NCBI GenBank assembly: GCA_947472765.1
Contig: CANJCM010000035.1
Coordinates: forward strand, 1-44,308
From: Opitutia bacterium
GTDB lineage: Bacteria; Verrucomicrobiota; Verrucomicrobiia; Opitutales; Opitutaceae
Reading direction: 5' to 3'
DNA: 44,308 nt
The translations under genes and the position numbers were made by a program. Of this stretch, positions 6,280 to 31,059 are shown in pieces. Under the pieces are notes generated by a model, which saw only the letters and a list, made by a program, of their open reading frames with translations, was not told the DNA's origin and did not search any database. Numbering within the stretch: the stretch's first letter is position 1; every line of letters starts with the position of its first letter.

Positions 6280-6558
6280 CACACCCCGCCCTCCGGGCCG
6301 CCCCTCTCCAAGAGGGAATCGACGTTCTGCTGCTCGTGATCCCCGCTGGATCCGGAACCAGGCAGTCGAACCACAGATGGACACTGATGCGCACAGATGG
6401 GAAAGACCCCCGGCCATCGCCCACCAAAAGGTGTGCCTGATTTCCAGCCGCCCTGTGCTGGATCGACGCCTCTGAATCCGTGTCCATTTGTGTCCATCTG
6501 TGGTTGTTTCCTCGGCATGGTCCCGCTCGAGAGGGGTGGAGTAGGCGTCGGGGTGTGT
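6280..6558. repeat. Composite element: ACACCCCG terminal inverted repeats around an ACAGATGGACAC core
   Basis: Left end 6280-6317 (ACACACCCCGCCCTCC, then CCCCTCTCCAAGAGGG) is the inverted partner of right end 6525-6558 (CTCGAGAGGGGTGGA, then CGGGGTGTGT). The core 6370-6506 is another inverted pair: CCACAGATGGACACTGATG facing GTGTCCATTTGTGTCCATC. About 75 bp of low-repeat sequence lies in the middle. The rest of the 542-bp gap (6559-6683) holds a lone CTCTGTGTCTCTGCGCC-type tract (6574-6602) of the family seen at 12255-12410, and the 5' region of the next gene; no gene is seen. Confidence 0.8.
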
Positions 6559-6683
6559 TGCGCCAGTCCCGCATCTCTGTGTCTCTGCGCCTTCGTGGTT
6601 AATGTTTGGGCGAATCCCGCATCGAGATTCCAAAATCCAAAATTCCCTCCCCTTCCCGCGCCGCGGCGCCTTACTTCCCTACC

Positions 6684-7946
6684 ATGAAAGTTCCCCTCCA
6701 GTTCGGCCGCGACGGACTCACGATCGATATCCCCTCCGCCCGCGTCACGGTCGTCGAGCCGATCTTCGTCAAGGGACTGCCCGACGAAGCGGCCGCCTTT
6801 GCCGCGGCCGTGCGAAAGCCGATCGGTTCCCAGCCGCTCGCCGAGTTGATCAAGGCCACGGATCGCGTGGCCATCGTCATCCCGGATCACACCCGGCCCC
6901 TGCCCCGCGAGCGCATCCTTCCCTGGCTGTTTGCCGCGCTGCCGCATGTGCCGGCGGAAAATTTCGTCATCATCAACGGCACCGGTTCGCACCGCGCCAA
7001 CACGGACGCCGAACTGCGCCTGATGGTCGGCGACGCCGTCGTCGATCGCTACCGGATCGTGAATCACAACTCCTTCGATCCCGCGACGCTCCGACCCGTG
7101 GGCAAGACGGTCGACGGACGCCCGGTGTCCTTCAATCGCGACTACGTCGAGGCCGACAAGCGGATCGTGATGGGCTTTATCGAGCCCCACTTCATGGCCG
7201 GCTTCTCCGGCGGCTATAAGGGCATTTTCCCCGCGGTCGCCGACATCGACTCCATCAAACACTACCACCGCGCGCAGGTCATCGGCGATCCGCTCAGCAC
7301 CTGGGGCGTACTGGAAAATAATCCGACCCAGGCGCAGGTCCGGGCCAACGGTTCGCTCGTGCCAGTGGATTTCTGCATCAATGTCACCCAGAACCGCCAC
7401 CGCGACATTACCGGCTTCTTCTGCGGCGACGTGCTCGCCGCCCATGCCGAGGGCTGTGCGTTTGCGAAGCGCACCGCGATGGTCTCGTGCCCGCAGCCGT
7501 TCCCGATCGTCATCACGACCAACGGCGGCTTCCCGCTCGACCAGAATCTCTACCAAACGGTGAAGGGCATGTCGGCCGCGGCCCAGATTGTCGCCCCGGG
7601 CGGACTCATCCTCGCCGTCGCAGAGTGCAGCGACGGTTTTCCCGAGCATGGAAATTTCAAGAAGTTCGTTTTCTCGCACCACTCGGCGGGCGCGATGCTC
7701 GACACCATTAACAACGCTCCCGTGCCGATCCTCGATCAGTGGCAGGTGCAGTTGTTCGCGCTCATTCTCCAGCGGGCCCGCGTCGCGCTGCACAGCAAGC
7801 TCGCGCCTGGAGACGTGACGCGGGCGCATCTCGAACCCGTGGCCGATATCACCGCCTGCCTCGCCGCTGAGCTGAAGCGAATCGGCGCAGATGCCCCGAT
7901 TGCGGTGCTGCCCGAGGGTCCGATGACGATCCCGTATCTGGCTTGA
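6684..7946 (+). CDS. larA: LarA-family (DUF2088) protein, lactate racemase-like
   Basis: 420 residues from the ATG at 6684; the frame extends upstream into repeat sequence but homology begins here. LarA landmarks are present: DHTRPLP (about 68-74), GTGSHR with His103, EPHF with His169, GGYKG with Lys179 and HYHR around His193-195. These correspond to the nickel-pincer and catalytic residues His108, His174, Lys184 and His200 of Lactobacillus LarA. Known members interconvert D- and L-2-hydroxy acids using a nickel-pincer nucleotide made by LarB, LarC and LarE, none of which is in this window. Relatives act on malate, aryl-lactates or sugar acids, so lactate is only the default. It follows fumarase, which yields L-malate, a suggestive but unproven link. 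Confidence 0.88.
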   Translation: MKVPLQFGRDGLTIDIPSARVTVVEPIFVKGLPDEAAAFAAAVRKPIGSQPLAELIKATDRVAIVIPDHTRPLPRERILPWLFAALPHVPAENFVIINGTGSHRANTDAELRLMVGDAVVDRYRIVNHNSFDPATLRPVGKTVDGRPVSFNRDYVEADKRIVMGFIEPHFMAGFSGGYKGIFPAVADIDSIKHYHRAQVIGDPLSTWGVLENNPTQAQVRANGSLVPVDFCINVTQNRHRDITGFFCGDVLAAHAEGCAFAKRTAMVSCPQPFPIVITTNGGFPLDQNLYQTVKGMSAAAQIVAPGGLILAVAECSDGFPEHGNFKKFVFSHHSAGAMLDTINNAPVPILDQWQVQLFALILQRARVALHSKLAPGDVTRAHLEPVADITACLAAELKRIGADAPIAVLPEGPMTIPYLA

Positions 7947-8106
7947 AGACAGGAGCCGGAATTTGGACAGGATGACAGGATGGTGCAGGATTCGGAGCTT
8001 GGGCCCGAGTCCCTGACCAGGATCGGACTCCGAGGGAGCTCCACCGCTCTTCGCCCCATCCTGCTCAATCCTGTCATCCTGTCCAAACTCCGAACTCCTG
8101 TCATCC
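7947..8106. repeat. Inverted GGACAGGATGACAGGATG repeat pair
   Basis: Left arm GACAGGAGCCGGAATTTGGA, continuing GGACAGGATGACAGGATG, at 7947-7990. It is answered on the right at 8057-8106 by CATCCTGCTCAATCCTGTC, CATCCTGTCC and AACTCCTGTCAT. The middle also pairs in part (TCGGAGCTTG near 7994 with CTCCGAGGGAGC near 8028). It starts directly after the LarA stop and would make a long hairpin in the message. Single arms of the same family occur at 33262-33306 and 37421-37604. Confidence 0.8.
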
Positions 8107-8166
8107 CGCTCCTATCGTGTTTGCATCCTGTCGCTGCTTTCGCAAATGCTCCAGTCCCCAATCCCA

Positions 8167-8787
8167 ATGAAACTCCTGTCCCTTCGCACCCTCGCCTTGG
8201 CTGCCTCGGCGTTCATCGCTCTCTCCGCGGTTCGCGCCGCTGATACCGCCGCGCCGAACTTTGTTTCGATCTTCAACGGCAAGGACCTGACCGGCTGGAA
8301 GCCGAACGGCGACACCAGCATCTGGAGCGTCCAGGACGGCGCGCTGGTCGGCCGCAGCAATCCCCAGCGCAAGGGCAGCACGATCGACACCGAGAAGACC
8401 TACAAGAATTTCATCATCGAGTGTGATGTGAAATACCTGCCGCCGGCCGACAGCGGCATCGAGTTCCGCATGCCCCGGCTGCAGATGCAGATTGGCACGT
8501 CCGCCAGCCTCCGCACGGAGCTGACGGGATCTTTCTACCTCGGCGCCTTGAGCTACACCGACGACTCGACGGCGAAGGACACCTGGAAGGTGCTGAAGCA
8601 CGGCGACTGGAACCACATCCGCCTCGAGGCGCGTGGCGCGATTTTCACCGTTTGGATCAACGGCCAGATGGTGCATCGCTATGCCGATGCCGGCCATCCC
8701 GACGCCGGCCCGATCAGCCTGCAGGTGCACGACAACTTCGACATGAAGATCGAGTTCAAGAACATCCGCCTGGCGGAGCTGAAGTAA
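8167..8787 (+). CDS. Secreted DUF1080 (3-keto-disaccharide hydrolase-like) protein
   Basis: 206 residues if begun at the ATG 8167, which puts the signal peptide MKLLSLRTLALAASAF at the very N-terminus with probable cleavage after AVRA; an in-frame ATG 21 bases upstream is less likely. The rest is one DUF1080 concanavalin-like beta-sandwich, opening with FVSIFNGKDLTGWKPNG and holding SGIEFRMP, WNHIRLEARG and a closing IEFKNIRLAELK. Characterised members cleave 3-keto-glycosides in the periplasm, acting on sugars first oxidised by Gfo/Idh-type or FAD enzymes. Many relatives have no known substrate. It stands alone; a second DUF1080 gene lies at 29988-30635. Confidence 0.9.
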   Translation: MKLLSLRTLALAASAFIALSAVRAADTAAPNFVSIFNGKDLTGWKPNGDTSIWSVQDGALVGRSNPQRKGSTIDTEKTYKNFIIECDVKYLPPADSGIEFRMPRLQMQIGTSASLRTELTGSFYLGALSYTDDSTAKDTWKVLKHGDWNHIRLEARGAIFTVWINGQMVHRYADAGHPDAGPISLQVHDNFDMKIEFKNIRLAELK

Positions 8788-8796
8788 CCGGCGAGA

Positions 8797-9219
8797 ACAC
8801 ACCCCGTCGCTCTTCGACTAGCTCAGAGCCTCTATTTTAAGCGAACGCCAGGCCGTGAGCCCGTCGAACGGGTTCGCGCCACCCCTCTCGAGCCGGAACG
8901 ATGCCGTGGAATGTAGGGCCGGCGCTCGCCGCCGGCCCGTTTCGCGAATGAAGGCCGCGGCCCGGCGACTAGCCGGTTCGGCAAGCTCACGGCCGAACGG
9001 AGGGGATCCCGGGCCCTACACCGGGCCGCGGACGTTCCGTCGCAAGTTAGGCAGCCTTGGACGGTGAGGGCACCGTCCCTCCATTGACTTCTCTTTGAGA
9101 GGAGCGCGAACGGAAGTCTGAACGATCCGCCTACCCTGGAGGGCGGGTGGCCACACCCGCCGACTTCGTTCCACTGCATCATTCCAGCTCAAGAGGGGCG
9201 CAGTAGGGCGGGGGGTGTC
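8797..9219. repeat. Composite element, ACACCCCG terminal repeats with three inner palindromes
   Basis: Modules in order: left terminal repeat (8797-8890, interrupted by a TCGACTAGCTCAGAGCC insert also seen at 26305), GTAGGGCCGGCGCTCGCCGC (8918), GGTTCGGCAAGCTCACGGCC (8969), GGGCCCTACACCGGGCC (9012), GGACGGTGAGGGCACCGTCC (9059), GGAGGGCGGGTGGCCACACC (9139), and the right terminal repeat (9187-9219). No gene is seen in the 715-bp gap 8788-9502. The last part, 9335-9502, is plain leader sequence of the tRNA-synthetase gene. Confidence 0.75.
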
Positions 9220-9251
9220 GGCCACGGATCGACGCTCGTTCGAACGGCTTT

Positions 9252-9277
9252 CACGGGTCGGGAGACCCGTGCCACTT
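9252..9277. repeat. Half copy of the GTGGCACGGGTCTCC element
   Basis: CACGGGTCGGGAGACCCGTG followed by CCACTT matches the right arm of the elements at 4318-4389 and 6171-6240. No left arm is visible, but CGTTCGAACGGCTTT before it resembles the core of copy 1. Confidence 0.7.
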
Positions 9278-9292
9278 CCGGCCATGCCAAAC

Positions 9293-9331
9293 AAAGAAAC
9301 CGACCCCGCGTGGGATCGGTTTCTTTCTTCT
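9293..9331 (+). terminator. Rho-independent terminator-like hairpin upstream of asnS
   Basis: AAAGAAACCGA pairs with TCGGTTTCTTT around a GC-rich inner CCC/GGG stem, then TCTTCTTAAT follows. The arms are A-rich upstream and T-rich downstream, so it could end transcription from either side. Nothing on the plus strand just before it is an obvious gene. A 16-codon ORF (ATG 9284, stop 9332) spans the hairpin, starting MPNKETDP, but lacks a ribosome site and may be chance. It could end a short transcript or insulate asnS from upstream reading. Confidence 0.6.
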
Positions 9332-9502
9332 TAATACTTACTTTGATCACCGCCGTCCGGCGCGGTGCCTCACTCCCAGCAGGCCGAGTTGCACACTCCC
9401 GACAGATGTGCCGCCGGAACCGGCGGCCTCGGCACGGCGCAGCAGCGCAGTGCCTTTACAGATTTGCGTCACACCGTGGGCGCGGATTCGTTGGATGCAC
9501 AC

Positions 9503-10900
9503 ATGGCACGCACCCTGATCAAAGACGCGCTGGCGGCCTCGGCTCCCCAGGACGCGATCCAACTCCAGGGCTGGGTTCGCACCCGGCGCGACGCGAAGGC
9601 GTTCTCGTTTATCGAGCTCAACGACGGCTCCAGCCTGAAGGGCATCCAGGTCATCGCGAACGCGACGCTCCCGGACTACGCGCACATCGAGAAGGCCACC
9701 ACGGGCGCCGCCCTTGAGGTGCACGGCAAGCTCGTTCCCTCCCAAGGCCAGGGCCAGAAGTGGGAAGTGATCGCGGACACCTTCAAGGTCGTCGGCGAGG
9801 CGGACGCGACCTATCCGCTGCAGAAAAAGGGACACAGCCTCGAGTTTCTCCGCGAGATCGCCCACCTCCGCCCGCGCTCGAACCTCTTTGGGGCGGTCTT
9901 CCGCGTGCGCAGCCGGCTGGCGTACGCCGTGCACCAGTTTTTCCAGCAGAAGGATTTCATCTACGTCCACACGCCGATCATCACGGCCAGCGACGCCGAG
10001 GGCGCGGGTGACATGTTTCGCGTGACCACCCTGCCCGTCGGCGATCCGCCGCGCACCGAGGACGGCCAGGTGGACAACACGAAGGACTTCTTCGCGAAGA
10101 AGACTTTCCTCACCGTATCGGGGCAACTCGAAGGCGAGATCTTCGCCTGCGCGCTTTCGAACATCTACACCTTCGGGCCGACGTTTCGCGCGGAGAATTC
10201 CAACACCTCACGCCACGCGGCCGAGTTCTGGATGATCGAACCCGAGGTCGCGTTTTGCGATCTGCAGGGGAACATGGCGCTCGCCGAGGAGTTCGTGAAA
10301 TACCTCATCCGCGACGCGAAGGAACATTGCGCCGCCGACCTCGAGTTCTTCAGCAAGTTCGTCGACAAGGAACTGCTCGCGCGGCTCGACTTCGTCCTCG
10401 AGCGGCCGTTCCAGCGCTGCAGTTACACCGAGGCGGTGGAGATTCTCGAGAAGAGCGGAAAGAAGTGGGAGCATCCCGTCTCCTGGGGCGCGAATCTGCA
10501 GGCTGAGCACGAGCGCTACCTCACCGAGGAACACTTCAAGTGTCCGGTGACGGTCTACAATTATCCGCGGGCGATTAAGGCCTTCTACATGCGCGTCACC
10601 GACGGCTGTCCGCCAGATCGGCAAACGGTCGGGGCGATGGATTTGCTCGTGCCCGGCATCGGCGAAATCATCGGTGGCAGCCAGCGCGAGGAACGGCTGG
10701 AGATGCTCCGCGAAGGCATGGCGATGCATCATCTCTCCGAGAAAGACTACTGGTGGTATCTCGATCTGCGGCGTTTCGGTTCCGTGCCGCACGCCGGCTT
10801 CGGCCTCGGCTTCGAGCGGATGCTGATGTTCGTCACCGGCGTCGGAAACATCCGGGACGTCATTCCGTTTGCGCGCACGCCCGGCACGGCGGATTTCTGA
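9503..10900 (+). CDS. asnS: Asparaginyl-tRNA synthetase
   Basis: 465 residues from ATG 9503, almost exactly the E. coli length (466); the frame is open further upstream but homology starts at [10 protein letters not shown]. The N-terminal OB-fold anticodon-binding domain (about 1-110; [20 protein letters not shown]) is followed by the class II catalytic core. Motif 2 is [20 protein letters not shown] and motif 3 [25 protein letters not shown] marks it as AsnRS and not AspRS. It charges tRNA-Asn with asparagine in the cytoplasm. A roughly 50-residue stretch after the [13 protein letters not shown] motif ([20 protein letters not shown]) is usual for bacterial AsnRS. It forms a single-gene unit with a hairpin upstream. 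Confidence 0.97.
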
Positions 10901-10919
10901 CGCGGAACCATTCCGTTGA

Positions 10920-11195
10920 TGGTAGGGCCGGCGCTCGCCGCCGGGCCGCTTCGCGAATGTAGGCCGTGGCCGACCGACGAACGGCAGTTGGTGTACTGAT
11001 TGGTGAACGTTCCGCTCGACGAAATGCAGCCGTGGATGGTGGGGGCACCGTCCCCACGGATTGCTTTCCGAGAGGAGGAACAGCCGGGCATCTGAACGAC
11101 GCGCCTTCCCTGGAGGGCGGGTGTCTCACCCGCCAGTTACATTCCACTGCATCGTTCCGGCTCGAGCGGGGTAGCGCGCAGCGCCGGGGTGTGTC
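10920..11195. repeat. Composite repeat, left end missing, 20 bp after asnS
   Basis: Contains GTAGGGCCGGCGCTCGCCGC (10922), GGATGGTGGGGGCACCGTCC (11034), GCTTTCCGAGAGGAGG (11064), GGAGGGCGGGTGTCTCACCC (11113) and the right terminal repeat CTCGAGCGGGGTAGCGCGC followed by CGGGGTGTGT (to 11195). Order and orientation are the same as at 8918-9219. The left ACACCCCG end is absent, so it looks truncated against asnS. It fills the whole 312-bp gap to the next gene; no gene seen. Confidence 0.75.
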
Positions 11196-11212
11196 GGCTG
11201 GGGCTTGCTGCT

Positions 11213-12223
11213 TCAGCGCACGCGACCTCGGGCGGCGACGGTCCACTTGCCTTCGACCATCCCGTTGCGGCCGTACCAGACCTCGTCCTGCAGGTTCACC
11301 GCCGGACAAACATGGCTCGGAATGACCCAGACTTTCTCGCCGACCTTCGCCGTGCTGCCGTTGAGCGCGACATGCCCGTGTTCCTCCGTCATGCGTGGCA
11401 TGGTCCAGGTCCGGCCGGGAAACAGGCCGTAATTCGGCGCCCCTTTCGTCGCGTCGTAGGTGAAGGTCTTCGAACCCCCATCGATGATGCACTGCCCGGG
11501 GACGCTGGTGCTCACGACGGTAACGAGCATCCGAAGGGCACAGTCCGCCTCGGTGCAGAGTCCCTGCACCACGCCCGTCGCATCCTGGAACACATACGTG
11601 CCCGGACGAACCTCGGTGGTTTGCGGAATCAAGTGGGTCCGATCCATGCCGGGCGTGGAACCGCCCGAAACGATTTTCACCTCGAACCCGGCGGCCTTCA
11701 GGGCCGCCAGCACCGCGTCGATTTTGCGCCGCGCCGCCTGAAACTCGGCTTCGTTGAGCCACGCGGGATAATAAAAAATGCCCTGAAAGTTCGTGCACGC
11801 CCGCGCCACCGCCACCGCGTCCGCCGGCGTCTGCACGCCGCAGCGGCCGGCACCGATGTCGATCTCCACCAGCGTGTTGATTCCAGGGAGGCCCCGCGCG
11901 ATTTCCACGGAATCGACGGCGACCGTGATGCGCCGGGTCTTCGCGAGTTCGCGAACCCGCGGAAATTTTTCGGCGGTGAGCGGGTAACCGATCAGGATGT
12001 CATCGCCCGGCATCACCTCGGCCTCGCCGGTCTTCGCCATCGTCAGACCGATCGCTCCCGCGGCGAGCTGCATGCGGGCGATCTCGGGCATCTTGTGGGT
12101 CTTGATGTGCGGACGCAGCGACACGCCGAGCTTGTTGCAGCGCTCCTGCATCGTTCGGATGTTGCGCTCCAGCACGTCGAGATCGACGTAGAGGGCCGGG
12201 GTATCGAGTTCGGTCGCGTTCAT
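11213..12223 (-). CDS. D-serine dehydratase / D-threonine aldolase family PLP enzyme
   Basis: 336 residues, fold-type III (alanine-racemase-like barrel plus beta domain). The PLP lysine lies in RPHIKTHK (Lys41 by alignment); SGGSTP, GTYVFQDA and IDGGSKTF are family motifs. The metal site is SHVCP with His304 and Cys306. In this family a His-x-Cys pair binding zinc is characteristic of eukaryotic-type D-serine dehydratase, whereas D-threonine aldolases have His-x-Asp with manganese. I therefore favour D-serine (or D-threonine) dehydration to a 2-oxo acid and ammonia in the cytoplasm, by inference. The next gene in the same direction upstream is RidA, which clears the enamine such a dehydratase releases. 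Confidence 0.87.
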   Translation of the reverse strand: MNATELDTPALYVDLDVLERNIRTMQERCNKLGVSLRPHIKTHKMPEIARMQLAAGAIGLTMAKTGEAEVMPGDDILIGYPLTAEKFPRVRELAKTRRITVAVDSVEIARGLPGINTLVEIDIGAGRCGVQTPADAVAVARACTNFQGIFYYPAWLNEAEFQAARRKIDAVLAALKAAGFEVKIVSGGSTPGMDRTHLIPQTTEVRPGTYVFQDATGVVQGLCTEADCALRMLVTVVSTSVPGQCIIDGGSKTFTYDATKGAPNYGLFPGRTWTMPRMTEEHGHVALNGSTAKVGEKVWVIPSHVCPAVNLQDEVWYGRNGMVEGKWTVAARGRVR

Positions 12224-12254
12224 GCAGGAAGAAGAAGATTAGGCACAAGAGGGA

Positions 12255-12410
12255 TTAACCACCGAGACACCGAGGCACCGAGCCGGTTTAAACACGAAGA
12301 CACGAAGGGCACAAAGGTTTGGGATCCTGGCGATCCGGTCTGCTCTCGGTGCCTCGGTGTCTCGGTGGTTAAATCAGGGGCTTCGTGCCCTTCGTGCCTT
12401 CGTGGTTAAA
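12255..12410. repeat. Interleaved ACCGAG / CACGAAG inverted repeats
   Basis: Four arms in the order A-B-A'-B'. A is ACCACCGAGACACCGAGGC (12257-12282), B is ACACGAAGACACGAAGGGC (12291-12312), A' is GCCTCGGTGTCTCGGTGG (12351-12370) and B' is CTTCGTGCCCTTCGTGCC (12381-12398). Both pairs match, but they cross rather than nest, so in RNA only one hairpin or a pseudoknot could form. Each arm is internally a tandem of a 7-8 base unit. The block ends seven bases from the RidA stop. Confidence 0.8.
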
Positions 12411-12416
12411 ACTCCG

Positions 12417-12794
12417 TCACTGCATCGCAACGCACTCGATCTCGACGGCGAAGTTTCGCGGGAGCGCGCCGGCCTGGATCGTCGTGCGGGCGGGAAACGG
12501 CGCGGCGAAGTAAGTCGCATAGACTTCGTTCATCGCCTTGAAGTCGCCAATATCGCGGAGAAACACGTTCACCTTGACGACCTTCTCCAGCGAGGAGCCG
12601 GCGGCCTCGAGGATCGACTTGATGTTTTCGAACACCTGCTTCGTCTCGGCCTGAATCGTCGAAGGCGTGTAGTTGCCGGTGGCAGGATCGAGCGGGCCTT
12701 GGCCCGACACGTAGATGAATCCGTTCGCGACGATCGCGGGCGAATAGGGAGCGGATGGCGCCGCAGCGCCCTTGGGGTTGACGGCTTTTCTCAT
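12417..12794 (-). CDS. ridA: RidA family enamine/imine deaminase
   Basis: 125 residues, full length for the Rid/YjgF family trimer. It hydrolyses reactive enamine/imine intermediates such as 2-aminoacrylate, released by PLP-dependent dehydratases, to 2-oxo acid and ammonia in the cytoplasm. Catalytic features are kept: Arg103 in PARTTIQ (Arg105 of E. coli RidA) and Glu119 in VEIECVAM. YSPAIVANGFIYVSGQGPLD is the usual N-terminal signature. It lies between the D-serine-dehydratase-like gene and the D-aminoacylase gene, all on the minus strand but separated by repeat blocks, so one shared transcript is uncertain. The Arg marks the RidA subfamily and not the Rid4-Rid7 types lacking it. Confidence 0.94.
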   Translation of the reverse strand: MRKAVNPKGAAAPSAPYSPAIVANGFIYVSGQGPLDPATGNYTPSTIQAETKQVFENIKSILEAAGSSLEKVVKVNVFLRDIGDFKAMNEVYATYFAAPFPARTTIQAGALPRNFAVEIECVAMQ

Positions 12795-12870
12795 GGCGAC
12801 GGCGATTGATTCGCAAATTCGGCGATGTGTCTAGCGATGAAGCGGACCGATCAACCGGAGCCGCGCAGCT

Positions 12871-13076
12871 TAACCACAGATGGACACAGATGGACACAAA
12901 TCCGGTGGTCCGTTCGAAACACGGTCTTCCGGATGTCAGGAGCGCTGCACGTCTTCACTCAGTGCACTCGGAGGTTAAACTCCGGAGGTTGGACCACGGA
13001 GCGCACGGAATGCACGGAATCAAAGGCCGCCACTGCTGAGGCATCCGTGTTCATCGGTGTCCATCTGTGGTTTAAC
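12871..13076. repeat. ACAGATGGACAC inverted repeat element
   Basis: Left arm TTAACCACAGATGGACACAG ends near 12904 after a second GATGGACACAAAT. The right arm 13041-13076 is ATCCGTGTTCATCGGTG followed by TCCATCTGTGGTTTAA. The core between has its own GGAGGTTAAACTCCGGAGG (12970) and CACGGAGCGCACGGAATGC (12995) runs. It fills most of the 306-bp gap between the RidA and D-aminoacylase genes; no gene seen. Confidence 0.8.
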
Positions 13077-13100
13077 TCCCAGAGGGAGCCGCGCGGCAAC

Positions 13101-17695: not shown

Positions 17696-17697
17696 AC

Positions 17698-18261: not shown

Positions 18262-18488
18262 AACACACCCCGCCCTTCGGGCACCCCGCTCGAGCCGGAA
18301 CGGTGCAGTGGAACAAAATCGGCGGGTGTGGGCACCCGCCCTCCATGGTAGGCGGATCGGTCAGACTTCCGTTTGGTCTCCTCTCAAAGAGCTATGCATG
18401 GAGGGACGGTGCCCCCACCGTCCACGGCTACCTTTCGGGCAACGGAGCGTCCACGGATCGGTGTAGGGCCGGCTCGAGAGGGGACCTT
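18262..18488. repeat. Composite element, opposite orientation, right end truncated
   Basis: Order is reversed relative to 8918-9219: ACACACCCCGCCCTTCGGGC (18264), GGCGGGTGTGGGCACCCGCC (18322), CCTCTCAAAGAGC (18381), GGGACGGTGCCCCCACCGTC (18403), then GTAGGGCCGGC (18464) and CTCGAGAGGGGACC (18474) where the closing ACACCCCG complement should be. Strong similarity to 30736-31059, including the spacers GGTAGGCGGATCG and TCAGACTTC. Confidence 0.75.
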
Positions 18489-18531
18489 CAGTAACCTCTT
18501 CGAAAGGTCCCCGTTCGAGTGCCGACTGGGA

Positions 18532-18617
18532 GCCCTTGCCGTGAGGGCAGGGAATTCTTCATCGCTTCCCCTAAAGTTGTCCCGCTGCTCACGCAGCGGG
18601 CTACCAAGCTCACTTGG
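18532..18617 (-). mobile_element. Fragment of the MITE-like 120-bp element
   Basis: GCCCTTGCCGTGAGGGCAGG, TTCATCGCTTCCCCTAAAG and CCCGCTGCTCACGCAGCGGG appear in the order and spacing of the copy at 39720-39838. It is more diverged, and the GGATTCCGAAGTT ends are missing. It lies 11 bp from the stop of the triple-repeat protein gene and could shape its 3' end. Confidence 0.7.
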
Positions 18618-22800: not shown

Positions 22801-22879
22801 GACGGGAAGGCAGGAGGTCGGAGTTGGCGGGGAAGAGTTGGGAAGCGAGCCCGAGGTTTGCGTGATCGACCATCTTTCC

Positions 22880-23053: not shown

Positions 23054-23061
23054 AAACCATC

Positions 23062-24030: not shown

Positions 24031-24040
24031 GCGGCCCCGG

Positions 24041-24109
24041 TTTGTCATTCTGAGCAGAGCGAAGAATGACAAGGGCCCGAATTGGCGGGTGAGGACACCC
24101 GCCCTCCAT
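24041..24109. repeat. Two hairpin repeats between msrP and msrQ
   Basis: TTTGTCATTCTGAGCAGAGC followed by GAAGAATGACAA (24041-24072) pairs GTCATTCT with AGAATGAC. GGCGGGTGAGGACACCCGCC (24084-24103) is the GGAGGGCGGGTG module in reverse. Both could attenuate reading into msrQ or stabilise the msrP message. Confidence 0.7.
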
Positions 24110-24129
24110 TCGGCTAGCCCGCCGTCCTT

Positions 24130-24822: not shown

Positions 24823-24870
24823 AGCGTCAGTTGGCCCCACCCCGTCCCGATTAATTCCTCCCGGACCTAA

Positions 24871-24903
24871 CCTTGCACGTCACGTAATACGTGACGTGCA
24901 AGG
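24871..24903. repeat. Perfect 33-base palindrome
   Basis: CCTTGCACGTCACGTA and TACGTGACGTGCAAGG pair fully (16 bp each) with a single A at the centre. Similar sequence (TGCACGTAATGTAATAC and GTAATACGTTACCTGCA) flanks the MITE-like copy at 39720-39838. Beyond it, 24995-25050 holds GTAGGGGCG-type repeats; the 255-bp gap has no gene. Confidence 0.85.
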
Positions 24904-25077
24904 ATCGGCGGAGCGGTGAAATTGCCGGAGGCAGGGACCGGGCAGGCTTGTTGTTGAGCGAATCCCTGACGCCTTGCCGAAAAGTCATCGTGGGCGCGCA
25001 CGAGGCGCGCCCCTACGAAAGGCGTTGTAGGGGCGTGGCTCGGGCACGCCCGTCGCAAAACAAATTCTCGAACAGGA

Positions 25078-26238
25078 CTAGCGGCTCGTAACGTCGGCCG
25101 GAGCGGGCCGCGTCACCGCCGCGAGAAACCACTCAATCGCATAGGTCGAGATCTGGCCGCCGGGGCCGTGGCGGTTCACTTCGAACGCGTGCGTCGCCCA
25201 CGGCAGGGAGACGAAGAGGTTCTTTACCTTGAGTTCGTTCAGGCGCGCCTCGAGCCGTTCGCTGTGCCGGTGCCAGACCAGCCCGTCGAGCCGGCCGTGG
25301 AGTTGCAACGTGGGCGGCGCGTCCGCCGTGACGTGGTTCAGCGCGCTCGCACTGTCGTAGGCGGCCTGCGCCGTCGCAGGCGGACCGCCGAGGTATTGCC
25401 GCATCAACGTCGGTGACTTCAGCGCATCGTCCTCCCAGGCGTTGGCATACCCGAAGTTCAGATCCGACGGCGAATACAGCGCCACGAGTCCGCGGAGCGC
25501 CGGATCTCTGGCTGTGTAGGCGACGACCTCGGCAATCTGGCCGCCGGCCGATCGGCCAAGCAGCACGAGCCGCGTCGGGTCGAGGCGCAGCGCGGTCGCG
25601 TTGGCCTTGAGGTAGGCGATGGCGGCGAGGGTGTCATCGCGCGGTGCCGGCCACGTGTGCGCCGGTGCGAGCCGGTAGGATATGGCCGCGACGGCGTAGC
25701 CGAGCGATACGACCCAGTGATTAAAGGACGCGAGCTGCGTGCGGTCCCCGCTGTCCCAGCCACCGCCGTGCACGACGATCACGCACGGAACCGGTCCGGT
25801 CGCAGCAGCGGCCGGTTGGTAATAATCAAGCGTGAGGCCCGGCGCGAACTCGCGCGTTTCGATCGGCACCGGCGGAATGCCGCGGCCGATCAGCGCGGTG
25901 ACGGCAAACGGCTCACGCGTCATCGGCACGCGGCCATACGACGACGCCAGATTCGCAGCGAGATTCTGGCTGATCCGCGCCGCTTCGATCACGGGACGGC
26001 AGAAAAGCCCGATCGCGAGCGAACACAGCAGGAGCGTCGCCAGCGCCACGCCGGGATGCATGCCCCGGTTGCTTGCCGCCAGGACCGCGATAAAAAACGG
26101 CACCGCGGCCAGAGCATAACCGTATTCGCCCGCCAGCACGGCCAGCCGCCACTCCGCCCAGTCGGGCGCGCGGACGAGCGTGAGGAGGCCGAGAGCGAAG
26201 CAGAGACCGGCGGAGGAAAAGAGAACCCAGCGGAACAT
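25078..26238 (-). CDS. Membrane-anchored alpha/beta hydrolase (esterase/lipase type)
   Basis: 386 residues. Three hydrophobic helices fill the first ~85 residues (FRWVLFSSAGLCFALGLL, LAAVPFFIAVLAAS, ATLLLCSLAIGLF). The hydrolase domain starts near 125: oxyanion-hole HGGGWDSG, nucleophile elbow GRSAGG with the Ser, acid in HGRLDGLV and catalytic His in ATHAFE. This is the BD-FAE/hormone-sensitive-lipase-like carboxylesterase group, acting on ester bonds, probably facing the periplasm. Substrate is unknown; relatives act on acetylated or feruloylated plant polysaccharides, which would suit a sugar-degrading bacterium. It stands alone between repeat regions, and no promoter was recognised. Confidence 0.88.
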   Translation of the reverse strand: MFRWVLFSSAGLCFALGLLTLVRAPDWAEWRLAVLAGEYGYALAAVPFFIAVLAASNRGMHPGVALATLLLCSLAIGLFCRPVIEAARISQNLAANLASSYGRVPMTREPFAVTALIGRGIPPVPIETREFAPGLTLDYYQPAAAATGPVPCVIVVHGGGWDSGDRTQLASFNHWVVSLGYAVAAISYRLAPAHTWPAPRDDTLAAIAYLKANATALRLDPTRLVLLGRSAGGQIAEVVAYTARDPALRGLVALYSPSDLNFGYANAWEDDALKSPTLMRQYLGGPPATAQAAYDSASALNHVTADAPPTLQLHGRLDGLVWHRHSERLEARLNELKVKNLFVSLPWATHAFEVNRHGPGGQISTYAIEWFLAAVTRPAPADVTSR

Positions 26239-26290
26239 GGATAGGAACTCTCATTGCCGGAGGGCGAATGCCGAGTGCCGAATTTGGAAC

Positions 26291-26678
26291 CACACCCCGG
26301 CGCTCTTCGACTAGCTCAGAGCCTCTCTCTTGAGCGAACGTCAGGCCGTGAGCCTGTCGAACGGATGCGCGTCACCCCTCTCGAGCCCGATCCATGCATT
26401 GGGAACAACCACAGATGGACACAAATGGACACAGATTCAGAGGTGGCGGTGCAGCTCAAGGGGCGGTTGAAATCAGGTCACTGTCCAGTGGTCGATGCCT
26501 GGGCCTTAACTCATCTGTGTGCATCCGTGTCCATCTGTGGTTCAACTGAATGGTTCCGGCCCGAGAGGGGACCTTTGTTCAATCATTTCGTCCCGTCGGG
26601 CGAGGATGGCTTTCGCGCACGAACACGCTACTGAGATCCCCTTTTGGAGAGGGGTGGCGCGAAGCGCCGGGGTGTGTC
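26291..26678. repeat. Composite element: ACACCCCG terminal repeats around an ACAGATGGACAC core
   Basis: Left end CACACCCCGGCGCTC (26291) includes the TCGACTAGCTCAGAGCC insert seen at 8813, and CACCCCTCTCGAG follows at 26372. The core 26406-26543 is AACCACAGATGGACACAAAT facing ATCCGTGTCCATCTGTGG. Then GAGAGGGGACCTTTG (26562), and the right end GGAGAGGGGTGGCGCGAAGC with GCCGGGGTGTGT (to 26677). It fills the 536-bp gap 26239-26774. GAATGCCGAGTGCCGAA before it is another short repeat, also at 39628-39662. Confidence 0.8.
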
Positions 26679-26774
26679 TGGATTGATCGTCGGCGGGAAC
26701 ATAAGATCGCCGTCACTCGCCCCTCGGAATTCGGAATTGGCCATTTCCCCGCCCGCTCTTCCACTTCTGCATCC

Positions 26775-27470
26775 ATGCGTCGACTCGACCAATTCCTCGC
26801 CAATCTCGGCTACTGCAGCCGGCGCGAAGCGCGGGATTGGATCGAGGATGGACGCGTGACGGTCCACGGCGAGGTGGCCGATGATTCCGGCGCCAAGGTC
26901 AAGGCCGAGGCCGTGCGGGTGGACGGCGAACCGCTCGACCACCCCGACGGGCTCCTGTTGCTCGTCCACAAGCCGGTCGGACTCGTCTGCTCCCACGAAG
27001 CACGCGAGGGTCCAAACGTTTACTCGCTGCTGCCGGCGCGCTGGCAGCAGCGGCATCCGGCGATCACGAGTGTCGGACGTCTCGACAAGGACACCAGCGG
27101 ATTGATCCTGTTGACCGATCAGTCGCCGCTCGTGCACCGGCTCACCTCGCCGAAGCACAAGGTGCCGAAGACGTATCGCGCGACCGTCAGCGCCGAACTC
27201 TCGCCCGACCTCATCCCACTCTTCGCCAGCGGCACACTCCTGCTCGCCGGCGAAAAGGATCCCTGCGCACCCGCGACGCTGCGTCTGCTCGGGCCACGCG
27301 AGGCAGAGATAGTCCTCACAGAAGGGCGTTATCATCAGGTTCGCCGGATGTTTTCCGCATTCGGCGCCGAGGTAATGACCCTGCACCGTTCGCATTTCGG
27401 TCCGCTCGATCTCGAGGGAGTCGCGTCCGGGCAGTGGCGGGAGCTCCGGCTGGATGCGATTGGCATTTGA
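26775..27470 (+). CDS. rsuA: RsuA-family pseudouridine synthase (16S rRNA type)
   Basis: 231 residues from ATG 26775, the same length as E. coli RsuA. An N-terminal S4 RNA-binding domain (1-60; RRLDQFLANLGYCSRREARD) is followed by the catalytic domain with the key Asp in SVGRLDKDTSGLILLT. HKVPKTYRA and EGRYHQVRRMF complete the family set. It isomerises a uridine (U516 of 16S rRNA in E. coli) to pseudouridine during 30S assembly. The shorter open frame upstream is repeat DNA and was not included. RluE/RluF-type relatives on 23S rRNA share these motifs, so the exact target is inferred. A YhbY gene follows on the same strand. Confidence 0.92.
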   Translation: MRRLDQFLANLGYCSRREARDWIEDGRVTVHGEVADDSGAKVKAEAVRVDGEPLDHPDGLLLLVHKPVGLVCSHEAREGPNVYSLLPARWQQRHPAITSVGRLDKDTSGLILLTDQSPLVHRLTSPKHKVPKTYRATVSAELSPDLIPLFASGTLLLAGEKDPCAPATLRLLGPREAEIVLTEGRYHQVRRMFSAFGAEVMTLHRSHFGPLDLEGVASGQWRELRLDAIGI

Positions 27471-27520
27471 ATGCCGATTGCCGACTTCCAAGTGGCGAAT
27501 GCCGGCGGAATTGGGGGGTA

Positions 27521-27590
27521 AGTGGCGCCGCTCTCCGACCGGCGAAGTACCGGGGGTGACAAGAATTTCGCCGGTCGGCGACCGGCGCGA
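27521..27590. repeat. 70-bp element with inverted GTGGCGCCG(C/G)TCTCCGACCGG ends
   Basis: AGTGGCGCCGCTCTCCGACC then GGCGAA (27521-27546) faces TTCGCCGGTCGGCGACCGGC then GCGA (27567-27590). Length and design (arm, ~20-base core, arm, each arm itself palindromic) match the GTGGCACGGGTC elements, but the sequence differs. GAATGCCGATTGCCGA (27469) precedes it. Confidence 0.75.
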
Positions 27591-27658
27591 TTCCTTCGCC
27601 ATGGTTCGCCGCCATTTTGCTTCTTCCCATCCGGACCAAAGGACGGCATTCGCGAGCC

Positions 27659-27967
27659 ATGTATGAATTCCCTCTCACGGGCGCCCAGAAGTCGTTTCTG
27701 CGCAGCCAGGGCCAGACGCTCGAGCCGGTCATCAAGATCGGGCGCAGTGGCCTGACGCCCGCGTTCTTCATCGAGTTGCAGCGGCTGCTCCGGCGCCACG
27801 AACTCGTGAAGCTCCGGTTTCTGGGGGCGGACCGCGACGAACGGGCCGAACTCTGCACGCGCATCGCCGACGAAGGCCGCTGCATCTGCGTCGGGGCCGT
27901 CGGCGGCACCGCGCTCTTCTACCGGCAGAATCCAGAGCCGAAAGAACGGGTCATTGACCTCGGCTGA
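27659..27967 (+). CDS. yhbY: YhbY-type RNA-binding protein (CRM domain)
   Basis: 102 residues from ATG 27659; E. coli YhbY is 97. The whole protein is one CRM domain: LTGAQKSFLRSQGQTLEPVI, then the GxxG-like loop KIGRSGLTPAF, ELVKLRFLGAD and GTALFYRQNPE. The family binds pre-50S ribosomal RNA and helps large-subunit assembly in the cytoplasm. The next upstream gene is the 16S pseudouridine synthase, and RsgA lies about 3.4 kb downstream, so three ribosome-maturation genes cluster loosely here. The longer frame upstream (from 27617) is not supported by homology. Confidence 0.93.
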   Translation: MYEFPLTGAQKSFLRSQGQTLEPVIKIGRSGLTPAFFIELQRLLRRHELVKLRFLGADRDERAELCTRIADEGRCICVGAVGGTALFYRQNPEPKERVIDLG

Positions 27968-27988
27968 AGGCCCCCAGCGATCGGCGGC

Positions 27989-28083
27989 TTTGTAGGGCTG
28001 CCGCTCGTCGGCAGGCCTCGGAATTTTCGATTCTCGATTCTCGATTTTGGATTAGGCCCGGCGACGAGCGCCGGCCCTACAAA
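27989..28083. repeat. 95-bp element with inverted GTAGGGC(T/C)G ends
   Basis: TTTGTAGGGCTGCCGCTCGT (27989) is answered by ACGAGCGCCGGCCCTACAAA (28064-28083). The core is a run of TCGATTCTCGATT units (28027-28050). It lies between the convergent YhbY and PQQ-like genes. The same GTAGGGCCGG arms occur inside the composite elements. Confidence 0.75.
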
Positions 28084-28103
28084 TCAACCCGGGCGCCGCG
28101 GCT

Positions 28104-29882
28104 TTAGAACTGATACGCGATCACCGTGTTCTTCCCCTTGAAGTGGAAGACGCGGTTGAGCGGCTCATCGAGCATGTACTCCGGCTCTTTTTCCTTCAGC
28201 ACGACTTCGCGATCCGTCTCGCCGGTGCTGAGGTTGACGCCGACCACGCCGATTTCCTTTTCCACGTTGGTGAGGATGTAGGTGTAGGACTGAGCCGACT
28301 TCGATCCGCCGATGCGGGCCGCACGCTTTTCGGTGTAGGAGTTATACCGGTCGAGGTTGCTGTGAATGGTGCTCACGCCGTCATTGTAGCCACTGGATCC
28401 GATGCCACCGCTCGCCGCCACTTGGGCGTTGCCGTAAACCGCCGCGGCGGCCGTGACCGCAAACATCGCGGCGTTCGCGAACGCCTCGCTCGGCGCCGCG
28501 TAGTAGAGCGACCAGCTCGCCGTCTTCGTCGCGGGATCGAAACCGAGGAGGTGCTGCTTGCCCTGCACGATCACGCGGCCGCCCTGGATGTTCACTGCCA
28601 CCGGGACATCGAGCAGTCCCTTGTTGGCCGACATCACACCCTTGGCCAGGCCGGTCACGCCCCCGAGGGCACCGAGGCCGATCTTCGCAATGCTGCCGGC
28701 GCCCATCTTGCGCTTGAACTCGATCGGGACCTTGAACGACTCGACCGGCGTGGCCGGCACGGCGTCCAGGCCGTAAACGTTGCCGCCATCGGCAAACACC
28801 ACCGTGTTCGCCTCCGGGAGGACCATGAGATTGGTGATGCCTTCCTTGGCCTTGTCGAAGTGGTAGAGCGATTTTCCGTCGGCCGGATCGAGGACGACGA
28901 TGCCGAGCGGCTCGCGCAGGGTCGCGGTCTTGCCGTCGGAGAAATTCCCGCCGTAGCGCGAGAAAATCTTTCCGCCGGCGATCTCGATCTGCGCGACGAT
29001 CGCGTTGTCGCGGGCCTTGAAGAGGCCGGCGTACTCCGAGATGCGATCGCTCTTCCAAATCGTCGCGCCGGTCCGGCGGTTGATCGCGTAAACGCTGCCG
29101 CCGCCACCGCCGTAGATCCGGTCGCCGTCGATCCGCAGCGGCGCGTAGGTCTTTTTCAGGCCCTTGTTGCCCGAGGGAAATTCGACGCCCCACTTCACCG
29201 CGCCGCTCGTGAGGTCGACGCAATGCACGCCGAGATAACCGAGGTACATCTCGTCACCGTCGAACACGGGATCGTGATACCCGGAAAGATCCATCGTCGG
29301 CATGAACCGGCCGCTGTTGTCCGCAAGATGGAGCGGGATGCCGTTGCTCTTGGTGAACTTGGACGACCACTTGAGCTGCCCCTTCTCAAGGTCGTAGGCC
29401 ATCAGGTAGACGCCATTGTCCTTCTCCATGAAGGTATTGATGACGAAGATCACCATGTCCTTCTGCGGCACCGCGATCGTGTCGAGATACTGCGCCGTCA
29501 TCTGCGGGATGGTCCAGATGGTCTGCCCGGTCTGGTAGTCGATCGCCATCAGCGTAAGCTTCGAGTTGCCCATCCCCTCGACCGTGTTGCAGAGGAGCAT
29601 CGGCGTGCCGGGGATCTCCACCGCGTTGTTGCGGTTCGACTTCTTGATGTCGTCGCGCTTCCACGCGATTTTTCCGTCCTCGGGGGTGATCGCGAGCAAC
29701 GAGGCATCGGTGCCGACCAGCAGCGTGCCGAGGCCGGTCAACTGCTGCCACTTGGCATCACCGGGCAGCTTGGCGGTCCAGAGTTGCCGGGCGGGAGTGG
29801 CACTCGCGAGGGAGGCGGCGCCGAGGGCTGCGACGAAGAGAGCGCGGAAAAACCAGCGGGAAGCGGGGATTCGGGAGATCAT
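28104..29882 (-). CDS. Exported PQQ-like beta-propeller protein
   Basis: 592 residues with a signal peptide (MISRIPASRWFFRALFVAAL, probable cut after LASA). Repeated blade motifs of the quinoprotein-dehydrogenase-like propeller are seen: AITPEDGKIAWKR, AIDYQTGQTIW, AYDLEKGQLKW, CVDLTSGAVKW, AINRRTGATIWKS and GFDPATKTASW. A Gly/Ala/Lys-rich hydrophobic insertion (about 400-425, SIAKIGLGALGGVTGLAKG) and a second Ala-rich stretch (about 470-495) are unusual for such propellers. No haem site. It is most like BamB-type or non-enzymatic binding propellers, though a PQQ enzyme cannot be ruled out. Location is periplasm or envelope. It is downstream of the DUF1080 gene (105 bp), perhaps co-transcribed. 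Confidence 0.82.
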   Translation of the reverse strand: MISRIPASRWFFRALFVAALGAASLASATPARQLWTAKLPGDAKWQQLTGLGTLLVGTDASLLAITPEDGKIAWKRDDIKKSNRNNAVEIPGTPMLLCNTVEGMGNSKLTLMAIDYQTGQTIWTIPQMTAQYLDTIAVPQKDMVIFVINTFMEKDNGVYLMAYDLEKGQLKWSSKFTKSNGIPLHLADNSGRFMPTMDLSGYHDPVFDGDEMYLGYLGVHCVDLTSGAVKWGVEFPSGNKGLKKTYAPLRIDGDRIYGGGGGSVYAINRRTGATIWKSDRISEYAGLFKARDNAIVAQIEIAGGKIFSRYGGNFSDGKTATLREPLGIVVLDPADGKSLYHFDKAKEGITNLMVLPEANTVVFADGGNVYGLDAVPATPVESFKVPIEFKRKMGAGSIAKIGLGALGGVTGLAKGVMSANKGLLDVPVAVNIQGGRVIVQGKQHLLGFDPATKTASWSLYYAAPSEAFANAAMFAVTAAAAVYGNAQVAASGGIGSSGYNDGVSTIHSNLDRYNSYTEKRAARIGGSKSAQSYTYILTNVEKEIGVVGVNLSTGETDREVVLKEKEPEYMLDEPLNRVFHFKGKNTVIAYQF

Positions 29883-29987
29883 GGGAAAGGCGTTGTGCCT
29901 GTCCCATGGCTAGTGCTTCGCCCCGCCTCCCGGCGATGCGTTTAACCCGATCTCCGCAAGTATGCGTATGCCGTCGGCGGAACCCGT

Positions 29988-30635
29988 TTACGGCAGGATG
30001 TGCAGCGACATTTCCTTGTAGAACGTCGTGCTCTTCGGGTCGTGGCCCTGCAGCGCAATCGTCCCCTCGGAGAGTTTGCGGCCCGGCATGTCCTTCAGGC
30101 TCTTCGCCGGATCCCAGTCCGCGGGCTCGGTCCAGTCCACCGTCGTGCGGCCGTCGATCTGGATGATGATCCGCCGGCCCTGGACCTTGATGTAGTAGTC
30201 GAACCACACCTTGTCCTTGCTCGGTGCGTTATTCATCACGTCTTGGACGGCGTAGAGACCACCGGTTTTCTTGGCGTCAGCGTGACTCGTGTTCACCTGG
30301 CACTCGTAACCTTTGATTGGCCAGCCGGAGGGTTGGAACTCGGTGTGAAGGTAGATGCCGGAGTTGGAGCCGGCTGTCGTCATGACCTTGGCCTTGAACT
30401 CGAAGTTCTTGAACTTCGCCTGTCCATCGGGACCGACGTAGAAAAGATGCGCGCGGCCACCGCTGACCTTCAGCACGCCGTCCTCGACGGTGAAGACGCC
30501 CTTCGTCTCCTCGTTCGATTTCCACTGCGAGAGATCCTTGCCGTTGAACATCGACGTCCAGCCGGAGTTCTCCGCGGCCGAGGTGGAAACAAGGCCGGCC
30601 ACGAGGGCCACGGCCAATGCAAAGAGGGTTTTCAT
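29988..30635 (-). CDS. Secreted DUF1080 (3-keto-disaccharide hydrolase-like) protein, second copy
   Basis: 215 residues from ATG 30635, placing the signal peptide MKTLFALAVALVAGLVSTSA first; the longer frame upstream runs into repeats. DUF1080 motifs: WTSMFNGKDLSQWKSNEET, FTVEDGVLKVSGG, NSGIYLHTEFQPSGWP, YECQVNTSHAD, DWTEPADW and GTIALQGHDPKSTTFYK. The latter half, with GYECQVNTSHAD and the LQGHDP loop, is the more typical Bacteroidota/Planctomycetes form and differs clearly from the copy at 8167-8787, so they are distant paralogues. A periplasmic role in cleaving oxidised glycosides is inferred. The PQQ-like gene follows in the same direction. Confidence 0.92.
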   Translation of the reverse strand: MKTLFALAVALVAGLVSTSAAENSGWTSMFNGKDLSQWKSNEETKGVFTVEDGVLKVSGGRAHLFYVGPDGQAKFKNFEFKAKVMTTAGSNSGIYLHTEFQPSGWPIKGYECQVNTSHADAKKTGGLYAVQDVMNNAPSKDKVWFDYYIKVQGRRIIIQIDGRTTVDWTEPADWDPAKSLKDMPGRKLSEGTIALQGHDPKSTTFYKEMSLHILP

Positions 30636-30735
30636 GGTTCGGGATGTAATTCTGATCTGCATCGCTGTCCAGAGCGGCGCGGAAGGCGGTGTGCTGACCC
30701 GACCACGGCCGGCGGCAGGCTGAATCTCCAAGCTG

Positions 30736-31059
30736 CACACCCCGCCCTTCGGGCACCCCTCTCGAGCCGGAACGAGGCAGTGGAACGAAATCGGCGGGTG
30801 TGGGCACCCGCCCTCCATGGTAGGCGGATCGTTCAGACTTCATTTCGCTCTCCGCTCAAAGAGCAATCCATGGAGGGACGGTGCCCCCACCGTCCAAGGC
30901 GGTATAATGTCCGACTGAACGTTCACCGTTCGGTGTAGGGCCGGCGCTCGTCGCCGGGCCACGGCTCTCATTCGAGAAGAGGCCCGGCGGCGAGCGCCGG
31001 CCCTGCATTCAACTGCATTGTTCCGGCTCGAGCGGGGTGGCGCGCAGCGCCGGGGTGGG
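30736..31059. repeat. Composite element, most complete copy
   Basis: Left ACACCCCGCCCTTCGGGC (30737), CACCCCTCTCGAG (30754), GGCGGGTGTGGGCACCCGCC (30794), TCCGCTCAAAGAGC (30851), GGGACGGTGCCCCCACCGTC (30875), GTAGGGCCGGCGCTCGTCGC (30936) with its inverted partner GGCGAGCGCCGGCCCTGC (30987), then right end CTCGAGCGGGGTGGCGCGC and CGCCGGGGTG (to 31057). Both terminal repeats are intact, enclosing three palindrome types. In the 747-bp gap 30636-31382, the rest is 30636-30735 (DUF1080 leader) and the leader region described next. Confidence 0.8.

Follow-up and report, generated by a model that had tools for sequence, protein, structure and literature searches.

The TM/PIT repeats, whose E. coli form is TMECO, are intergenic, multi-copy hairpins with a purine arm and an antiparallel third strand, arranged in inverted pairs that, in E. 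coli, always combine two loop types (Holder et al. 2015; PMC4666352). More than 260 bacterial genomes are reported to contain this triplex-type repeat, and the account given there of the surroundings of the E. coli unit names no mobility gene (PMC4666352). The REPIN/RAYT system, as outlined in PMC3733652, shares with the repeats described below the short inverted hairpin pairs, the high copy number and one small nuclease gene bracketed elsewhere. We report here on the window, i.e. the whole 44,308-nucleotide stretch of contig CANJCM010000035.1 (C35 in our numbering) from an Opitutia bacterium (assembly GCA_947472765.1; 4.97 Mb in 157 contigs, completeness 96%), which carries six intergenic elements whose ends are hairpin units of the triplex type. 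An inverted pair of such units is called a shell, and the second element that fills it a core. The reading that we favour, and that we hold to be rather probable, is that the shells are the non-autonomous form of a mobile unit, the autonomous form being units that bracket a gene of the DUF559 family, which would mobilise, or would have mobilised, the repeats.

Read on the G-rich strand, the ends have a common design: GAGAGGGG or a variant, a loop, then the tag GGGGTGTG or a variant. The complete unit is a CCCCTCTC/GAGAGGGG hairpin, with a second hairpin as its loop, followed by the tag, which matches the purine arm; in the antiparallel reading, the placement of GGGGTGTG on GAGAGGGG yields G*GC and T*AT triads exclusively. 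The ten window ends (6280, 6557, 8798, 9219, 11193, 18264, 26291, 26676, 30736 and 31059), scored at the best placement near each end and with the degraded end at 18473 omitted, give 8/8 triads in six cases, 7/8 in three and 6/8 in one. The loop has in most cases a hairpin structure of its own, TGCCCGAAGGGC or TGGCGCGCAGCGCC, and left and right ends usually differ in the inner loop (CCCTNNGGG versus a GCGC type). At most window ends the hairpin is opened by the core; the ends at 6280 and 26676 retain their own degenerate hairpin. The full hairpin, with a fit over 7-8 nt, is present in the compact shells of the relatives G071, G073 and G061 and in both units of locus L205 (G017). These compact shells are unfilled inverted pairs of about 100 bp and, as in TM/PIT, most of them combine two different loop types, the exceptions being L205 and L206, in which one loop type is used twice.

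The arm and the tag covary. Among 156 hairpins selected blind to the tag, a perfect 9-nt third strand is found in 66, the mean of 5000 permutations being 16.1 and their maximum 31; with one row per distinct arm, the count is 6/27 against a mean of 0.68 and a maximum of 5. As related rows inflate the flank and covariation numbers, the distinct-arm count is the safest. The triad rule, which admits G*GC, A*AT and T*AT, gives 35/156 when it is read in parallel, partly from the mirror symmetry of many arms. The shell thus has an intrastrand-triplex design, and the unit is predicted from its sequence to form a triplex. Its second loop measures 12-15 nt, and up to 76 nt when it carries an insert, whereas the ITxF search of PMC4666352 defines loops of 1-6 nt; the shell is therefore a long-loop variant of the known repeat class and not a strict TM/PIT member, and units of its type lie outside that search because of this loop limit.

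The spread of the ends is that of a dispersed repeat. ACACCCCG occurs nine times in the window for 1.8 expected, a number reached in 0/100 shuffles. The motif CCCCTCTCGAG alone, with two mismatches allowed, is at chance level (29 for 28.3 expected), so that the evidence lies in the combined pattern. This pattern, ACACCCCG-N4-34-ACCCCTCTC, has 36 exact matches in the 4.97-Mb genome and none for the reversed control. It is present in 9/100 genomes of the family, the genome under study included (36 matches there, 27 in G071, 5 in G093, 4 each in G073 and G095, and single matches in G003, G017, G061 and G075), with one reversed-control match overall; within the genus, 5/27 genomes possess it. When shell 6 is used as the query, 40 places of the genome give a scored alignment (from 489 candidates), the other 39 at 79-92% identity. 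The palindromes might, given their intergenic position, be taken for mere terminators or mRNA-stabilising hairpins of local origin; this explanation is refuted by the copy structure just described, by the nested order that the elements have in common and by the sites that lack a shell or a core, and its probability is close to nil.

The gene associated with these units is DUF559 (PF04480). In the 100 family genomes, the search returned 15 matches in 13 genomes, six of them strong. A triplex unit stands on at least one side of all six strong loci, of none of the nine weak DUF559-domain matches and of none of the seven RAYT loci of the genome under study. At L274, in genome G621 from the genus of G071, the DUF559 gene is bracketed on both sides by exact window-type ends. 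Window-type ends also stand on both sides of the gene at L073 (G017), where the right end is one base short, and L275 and L276, which rank next among the relatives of L073, show the unit design with GGGGTGGG.

The association extends far beyond the family. The wider survey took the best 80 of 430 confirmed loci from named genomes and the best-scoring 30 from 286 genomes of the class, a sample that favours typical DUF559 proteins and Alphaproteobacteria and whose related rows are not independent; 107 of the 110 loci were usable, L111, L122 and L124 being dropped for short flanks. A triplex unit of at least 8 nt was found in 159/214 flanks, i.e. on at least one side in 97/107 loci (69/77 from named genomes, 28/30 from the class) and on both sides in 62. 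The controls gave 2/214 for shuffled flanks, 11/408 for shifted windows, 8/261 for partly non-coding windows of the same loci and 0/19 for a stricter intergenic set. The left and right flanks match in inverted orientation with a score of at least 16 in 68/107 loci, compared with 0/202 shifted and 9/300 cross-locus pairs. All ten loci checked by name outside the Alpha-, Beta- and Gammaproteobacteria possess at least one unit; five are of Chloroflexi type, and the others come one each from Elusimicrobia, Methylomirabilota, Nitrospirae, Deltaproteobacteria and Chitinophagaceae.

The bracketed gene is itself repeated in one genome. The unit of L100, with up to two mismatches, occurs 77 times in its own Rhizobiales genome, 86 times in that of L083, 17 in that of L088, twice in that of L151 and not at all in eight others. 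In the genome of L100, this unit accompanies DUF559 genes at four separate positions. It flanks the gene on either side in L304, L305 and L306, the last being L100 itself; these cassettes are pairwise 69-89% identical, and the open frame of L304 is shortened. The fourth, L311, shows an exact copy of the unit on a single side of the gene in the 701 nt extracted. Other DUF559 cassettes are positioned in frame inside type I restriction genes: an hsdR-like open reading frame (ORF) contains two DUF559 domains, with its SWI2/SNF2 match split in two stretches (L069), one domain splits the SWI2/SNF2 match of another hsdR-like ORF (L167), and one lies in an hsdM-like ORF (L164), all according to Pfam. 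In Sinorhizobium meliloti, an inverted repeat of 114 nt encloses a DUF559 gene. A search of plasmid records with Azospirillum and Sinorhizobium flanks returned no clean empty site for such cassettes. In E. coli K-12 (L271), ycjD, annotated as DUF559, lies between sapF and fabI, with a triplex unit on its fabI side. The sapF-fabI interval is polymorphic in E. coli (L271-L273), but its alternative content is the efflux operon eefRABCD, as described in PMC12817139, and it was rejected as a simple empty site.

Two further observations were made on these loci. In-frame DUF559 cassettes with triplex units were seen in the long ORFs of L069, L072, L163-L170, L173, L174, L177 and L178, where the units are translated as Pro/Ser/Gly-rich peptides; the reading of such loci covered 12 from the class. 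Four of the loci in which the survey found no unit, L151, L152, L154 and L156 (Mesorhizobium, Chelativorans), have DUF559 between inverted flanks of another design (GATTTCAGCATCTTAG...CTAAGTGCTAGAAATCGCAAGAGAGGGG at L151), which fail the triplex test.

The AlphaFold2 model of DUF559, built with 27 sequences (pLDDT 81), matches the structures 3hrl (Z 15.6), the catalytic domain of I-Bth0305I (Z 12.3) and Vsr (Z 10.0), and the sequence matches 3hrl at 2.6e-32 and 3r3p, which is I-Bth0305I, at 3.4e-4. R6, E13, W17, L20, F30, Q33, D42, E53, D55, G56, H59, R68 and R81 are invariant in the 27 sequences. The model and the sequence together place DUF559 in the predicted PD-(D/E)XK fold of the Vsr/EDxHD group. 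The EDxHD homing endonucleases, as presented for I-Bth0305I in PMC3943268, thus share with it the nuclease fold; they differ in that DUF559 stands here as an independent gene flanked by hairpin units and is not carried by an intron. VsrA of Caulobacter and YcjD of E. coli, which are of the same family or fold, are described as a repair nuclease or a putative nuclease, and these descriptions, as far as they go, make no mention of flanking repeats (PMC12907096, PMC1189080). No report of repeats bracketing DUF559 was met in the literature on DUF559, ycjD and intrastrand triplexes, which was covered in part. The RIME and BoxC palindromes of rhizobia and enterobacteria are putative look-alikes of these repeats, and the inverted repeat of S. 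meliloti mentioned above would be of their kind.

The model that we propose for the first layer, the shell, starts from the unit and its nuclease. DUF559 would recognise the unit, probably when single-stranded DNA has folded into a hairpin or triplex, and would cut or nick at or near it; the repair of the break would copy the unit to new places, in a mode comparable to the presumed action of RAYT on REPINs. The gene-free pairs of units would be passive copies. In a broader form of this model, DUF559 would be the missing mobiliser of intrastrand-triplex repeats across bacteria, in a system parallel to REPIN/RAYT: a nuclease of Vsr/homing type would take the role of the HUH enzyme, the triplex hairpin would be the recognised form, ycjD a domesticated or resident member, the window shells its non-autonomous products and their tips landing pads. 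To this broader form we give slightly less than even weight.

Several observations weigh against the model. Ten of the 107 surveyed loci are free of units and 45 lack one on at least one side. L083, the DUF559 gene sampled in G652 (Rhizobiales), has other flanks in a genome with 86 copies of the L100 unit. In the family, seven of the nine weak DUF559 matches lie in ORFs of more than 1000 amino acids, so that their missing units are partly an effect of coding sequence, and the right unit of L073 fails the triplex fit. No stand-alone DUF559 gene was found in the genome under study, its sole match lying in a 1636-amino-acid open frame; the shells would therefore be relics or depend on a nuclease that has been lost or acts from outside. 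The shell-rich G071, with 27 ends, has no DUF559 match, and G017 possesses the gene yet has one exact pattern match, so that the copy number does not track the gene. By eye, the outer borders of the shells show no clear target duplication. Finally, a stable in vivo triplex of the E. coli unit is not supported by the results that Holder et al. present (PMC4666352).

Part of this evidence would suit another explanation, in which DUF559 is a passenger: the units would spread by their own instability, through replication slippage and break repair, and would pick up a Vsr-like repair gene between copies. It is favoured by the high unit copy number in genomes where the gene was not found, by the E. 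coli unit, which Holder et al. tie to instability with no mobility gene noted nearby in their account (PMC4666352), and by the DUF559 protein of Caulobacter, which behaves as a Vsr-like protein (PMC12907096). A passenger should not readily be one small gene family bracketed in several phyla and repeated as multi-copy cassettes, nor be found as a cassette inside the unrelated genes hsdR and hsdM, and we consider this explanation unlikely. The statistically strong cross-phylum bracket around one small nuclease family makes the spread of these repeats a question that can be tested at the bench in E. coli K-12, and for this family, which has received little study, the unit is a natural candidate for the substrate. 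No mobility gene is reported near TM/PIT units in the text of PMC4666352; here DUF559 is bracketed by them and their tips carry other elements.

The first-pass annotation of the window had seen the ends as plain terminal inverted repeats (TIRs) of a mobile element and had pointed to a transposase or a RAYT gene bounded by them. The ends are triplex-hairpin units, and what relatives carry between ends of this sort is a DUF559 nuclease gene. The PF01797 search yielded seven Y1/RAYT genes in the genome, and none of the seven domains has a triplex unit within 900 nt or the shorter flank available, two of the loci being cut short on one side. That the shells are REPIN-like elements moved by these transposases is improbable. 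The presence of seven such genes, the GTAG-type palindromes inside the cores and, next to one shell of G362, a Y1_Tnp ORF that has palindromes of its own are compatible with it; the TIRs of the RAYT loci L032 and L034 are of another kind, the shell ends have no GTAG or CGTC foot but a triplex tag, and the bracketed gene, of Vsr-like fold, does not encode an HUH enzyme. RAYT was thus rejected as the shell mover, its genes being without shell ends. L032 and L034 have long ends of their own, GGGGTCATGGTAGGATTCGGGATATTGC (one base different in L032) ... ATATCCCGAATCCTACCATGACCCC.

The features described by the first-pass annotation are present at all six sites of the window, with paired ends at five of them, a right end degraded at 18473-18520, where the tag is absent, and a right end alone at 11161-11194. 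Left units lie on the minus strand and right units on the plus strand; the cores are given no strand. In shell 1, the left unit (6280..6317; tag CACACCCC, loop CCCTCCGGG, hairpin CCCCTCTCCAAGAGGG; 8/8 triads) is followed by a core of the ACAGATGG type with the common TIR CCGGAACCAGGCAGT... at the tip of the second hairpin (6352..6525) and by a right unit of the form GAGAGGGG ... GGGGTGTG (6526..6558; 8/8). The left unit of shell 2 (8798..8892; 8/8) bears the inner-loop insert TCTTCGACTAGCTC...GTCGAACGGG of family D6; its core (8893..9187) contains the palindromes GTAGGGCC, GGACGGTG and GGGCGGGTG and has the TIR CCGGAACGATGCCGTGGAA, and its right unit (9188..9219; 7/8) is degenerate. Shell 3 consists of a core (10920..11160) whose left end is absent and a right unit (11161..11194; 7/8). 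In shell 4, the left unit (18264..18294; 7/8) precedes a core of family D2 truncated at GTAGGGCCGG (18295..18472) and the degraded right unit (18473..18520), which keeps the arm GAGAGGGG and an ACCT...AGGT spacer and stands outside the triad count. Shell 5 comprises a left unit with a GTCGAAC-type insert in its loop (26291..26385; 8/8), a core of the ACAGATGG type (26386..26559), and a hairpin arm, a spacer and a right unit (26560..26676), the outer unit giving 8/8. In shell 6, the left unit has the loop CCCTTCGGG (30736..30766; 8/8), the core has three palindromes (30767..31026), and the right unit has the loop GCGCGCAGCGCC and the tag GGGGTGGG (31027..31059; 6/8). A scan of 30 of the 127 ORFs listed in the window recognised neither a transposase nor a DUF559 family, which agrees with the absence of a transposase noted at first, and the family searches with PF01797 and PF04480 gave no match on C35.

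The loop of the second hairpin in the shell carries a further repeat, CCGTTCGACAGGCTCACGGCCTGACGTTCGC...GCTAGTCGAAGA, at 8807-8880 and 26300-26372 of the window and also at L015 and L239; other copies of it lie within GTAGGGCC palindromes, again as a hairpin-tip insertion.

The core is the middle layer. Its two types had been distinguished at first, and both exist: the ACAGATGG type at 6352-6525 and 26386-26559, and the GGCGGGTG/GGACGGTG/GTAGGGCC type elsewhere. The boundary that they have in common, which had not been singled out at first, is the TIR CCGGAACSAKGCAGTNGAA of about 19 bp, with 208 ends in the genome at up to three mismatches and none for the reversed control. A third type has CCGCGAAGAGCGCGAAG at one end and GCGGCGAATMGCCGC at the other; since these two end types belong to one interior (C98, C21, C53), the genome has three core interiors, all of which begin and end with CCGGAACSAKGCAGTNGAA. 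The usual position of the core is the hairpin tip CCCCTCTNNAGAGGGG. In 37 paired cores, which include two with one common right end and a few spurious fuzzy matches, the comparison of the six flanking bases was tied in 22 and favoured a direct over an inverted relation in 14 of the 15 others; perfect flanking repeats are direct in seven cases (e.g. CTCAAG...CTCAAG) and inverted in one. The prevalence of the direct relation argues for a target duplication rather than a part of an inverted repeat. The length of this duplication could be 2, 4 or 6 bp, as the target and the element have CT/AG in common. The core thus combines TIRs with a target duplication, as a TIR transposon or a miniature inverted-repeat transposable element (MITE) does. 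What had been read as a swapping of cores would correspond to separate insertions with flanking direct repeats; the non-autonomous and nested nature of the elements, and the occurrence of ends and cores apart, stand.

According to our model, the CCGGAACSAKGCAGTNGAA-TIR element would insert mostly at the exposed hairpin tips (CTNNAG), which would serve as its landing sites, and would leave a short target duplication; repetitive extragenic palindrome (REP) pairs of the GTAG type and other palindromes would form a third layer inside it. The inner GTAGGGCCGG palindromes do possess GTAG. The layered repeats of the window would be explained in this manner by successive insertions, mostly at hairpin tips. 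Whether the middle layer is simply a MITE that belongs to a palindrome-targeting insertion sequence of the DDE type is evenly balanced in our judgement: the 19-bp TIR, the 208 ends, the direct repeats at the borders, the occurrence in G657 and a similar core in G017 speak for it, and against it stand the ambiguous duplication length and the fact that no parent insertion sequence with these TIRs was met, none having been searched for. In a shell of G657, which belongs to the genus, lies a core whose interior is different and which likewise has CTTGAG on both sides (L336); in G017, from another genus, a core with similar ends lies between two units, outside the tip (L205). One core of the genome sits at a target unlike a shell (C155:2211). 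A dispersed element, TAGAGCGGGTTAA...TTAATCTGCTCTA, was also observed to interrupt core copies at CTAG (L020, L033).

Sites devoid of a shell or a core complete this picture. The annotation had made its mobile-shell idea depend on ends paired at other sites and on ends and cores found apart; the ends are paired in other genomes, and ends and cores are also found separately. Behind asnS, where the window has the element 10920-11195, the same two genes lie about 45 nt apart in G362, whose asnS is the most similar one in the genus (85%), and the shell is absent. A shell on C34 of the genome under study is filled, and C111 of G362 has the same right flank GGGGTGTGTCCCGGCATTCGGCCCACCATGAG with the unfilled hairpin CCCCTCTGGAGAGGGG, the left part of the shell being occupied by a Y1_Tnp gene and palindromes. 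At C95 and C86, the shell lies in the same intergenic stretch of both genomes, unfilled in G362 and filled here, in alignments that are clean on a single flank. Unfilled shells are present in G362, G071, G073 and G375, and single unfilled units occur in the genome under study at C11:75725 and C16:31424. The observation of the first-pass annotation is therefore confirmed and its interpretation supported in part.

A few other features were noted around the shells. In G362, L326:846-1412 is a Y1_Tnp ORF (PF01797) flanked by GGGCGTGG...CGCCCCTACA palindromes; the shell that contains it holds a core in the genome under study. No gene between shell ends was noticed in the loci taken from the latter, in which no systematic search for one was made. 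The 1.6 kb between two opposed shells of G071 was considered as a candidate and rejected, as it contains an iron-sulfur assembly ORF (PF01883) and unrelated repeats. The compact shells L195, L197 and L198 of G071 are enclosed by yet another inverted repeat, CACTACTCCGTTAGGT...ACCTAACGGAGTAGTG. Copies of GGGCGGGTG, GTAGGGCC and related palindromes that belong to no shell are present in the window at 22874, 24080, 39936-40092 and 42223-42326, and a 77-nt direct repeat of the CCCGCTGCTCACGCAGCGGGCTAC type, 87% identical between its copies, lies outside the shells at 18532-18608 and 39747-39823.

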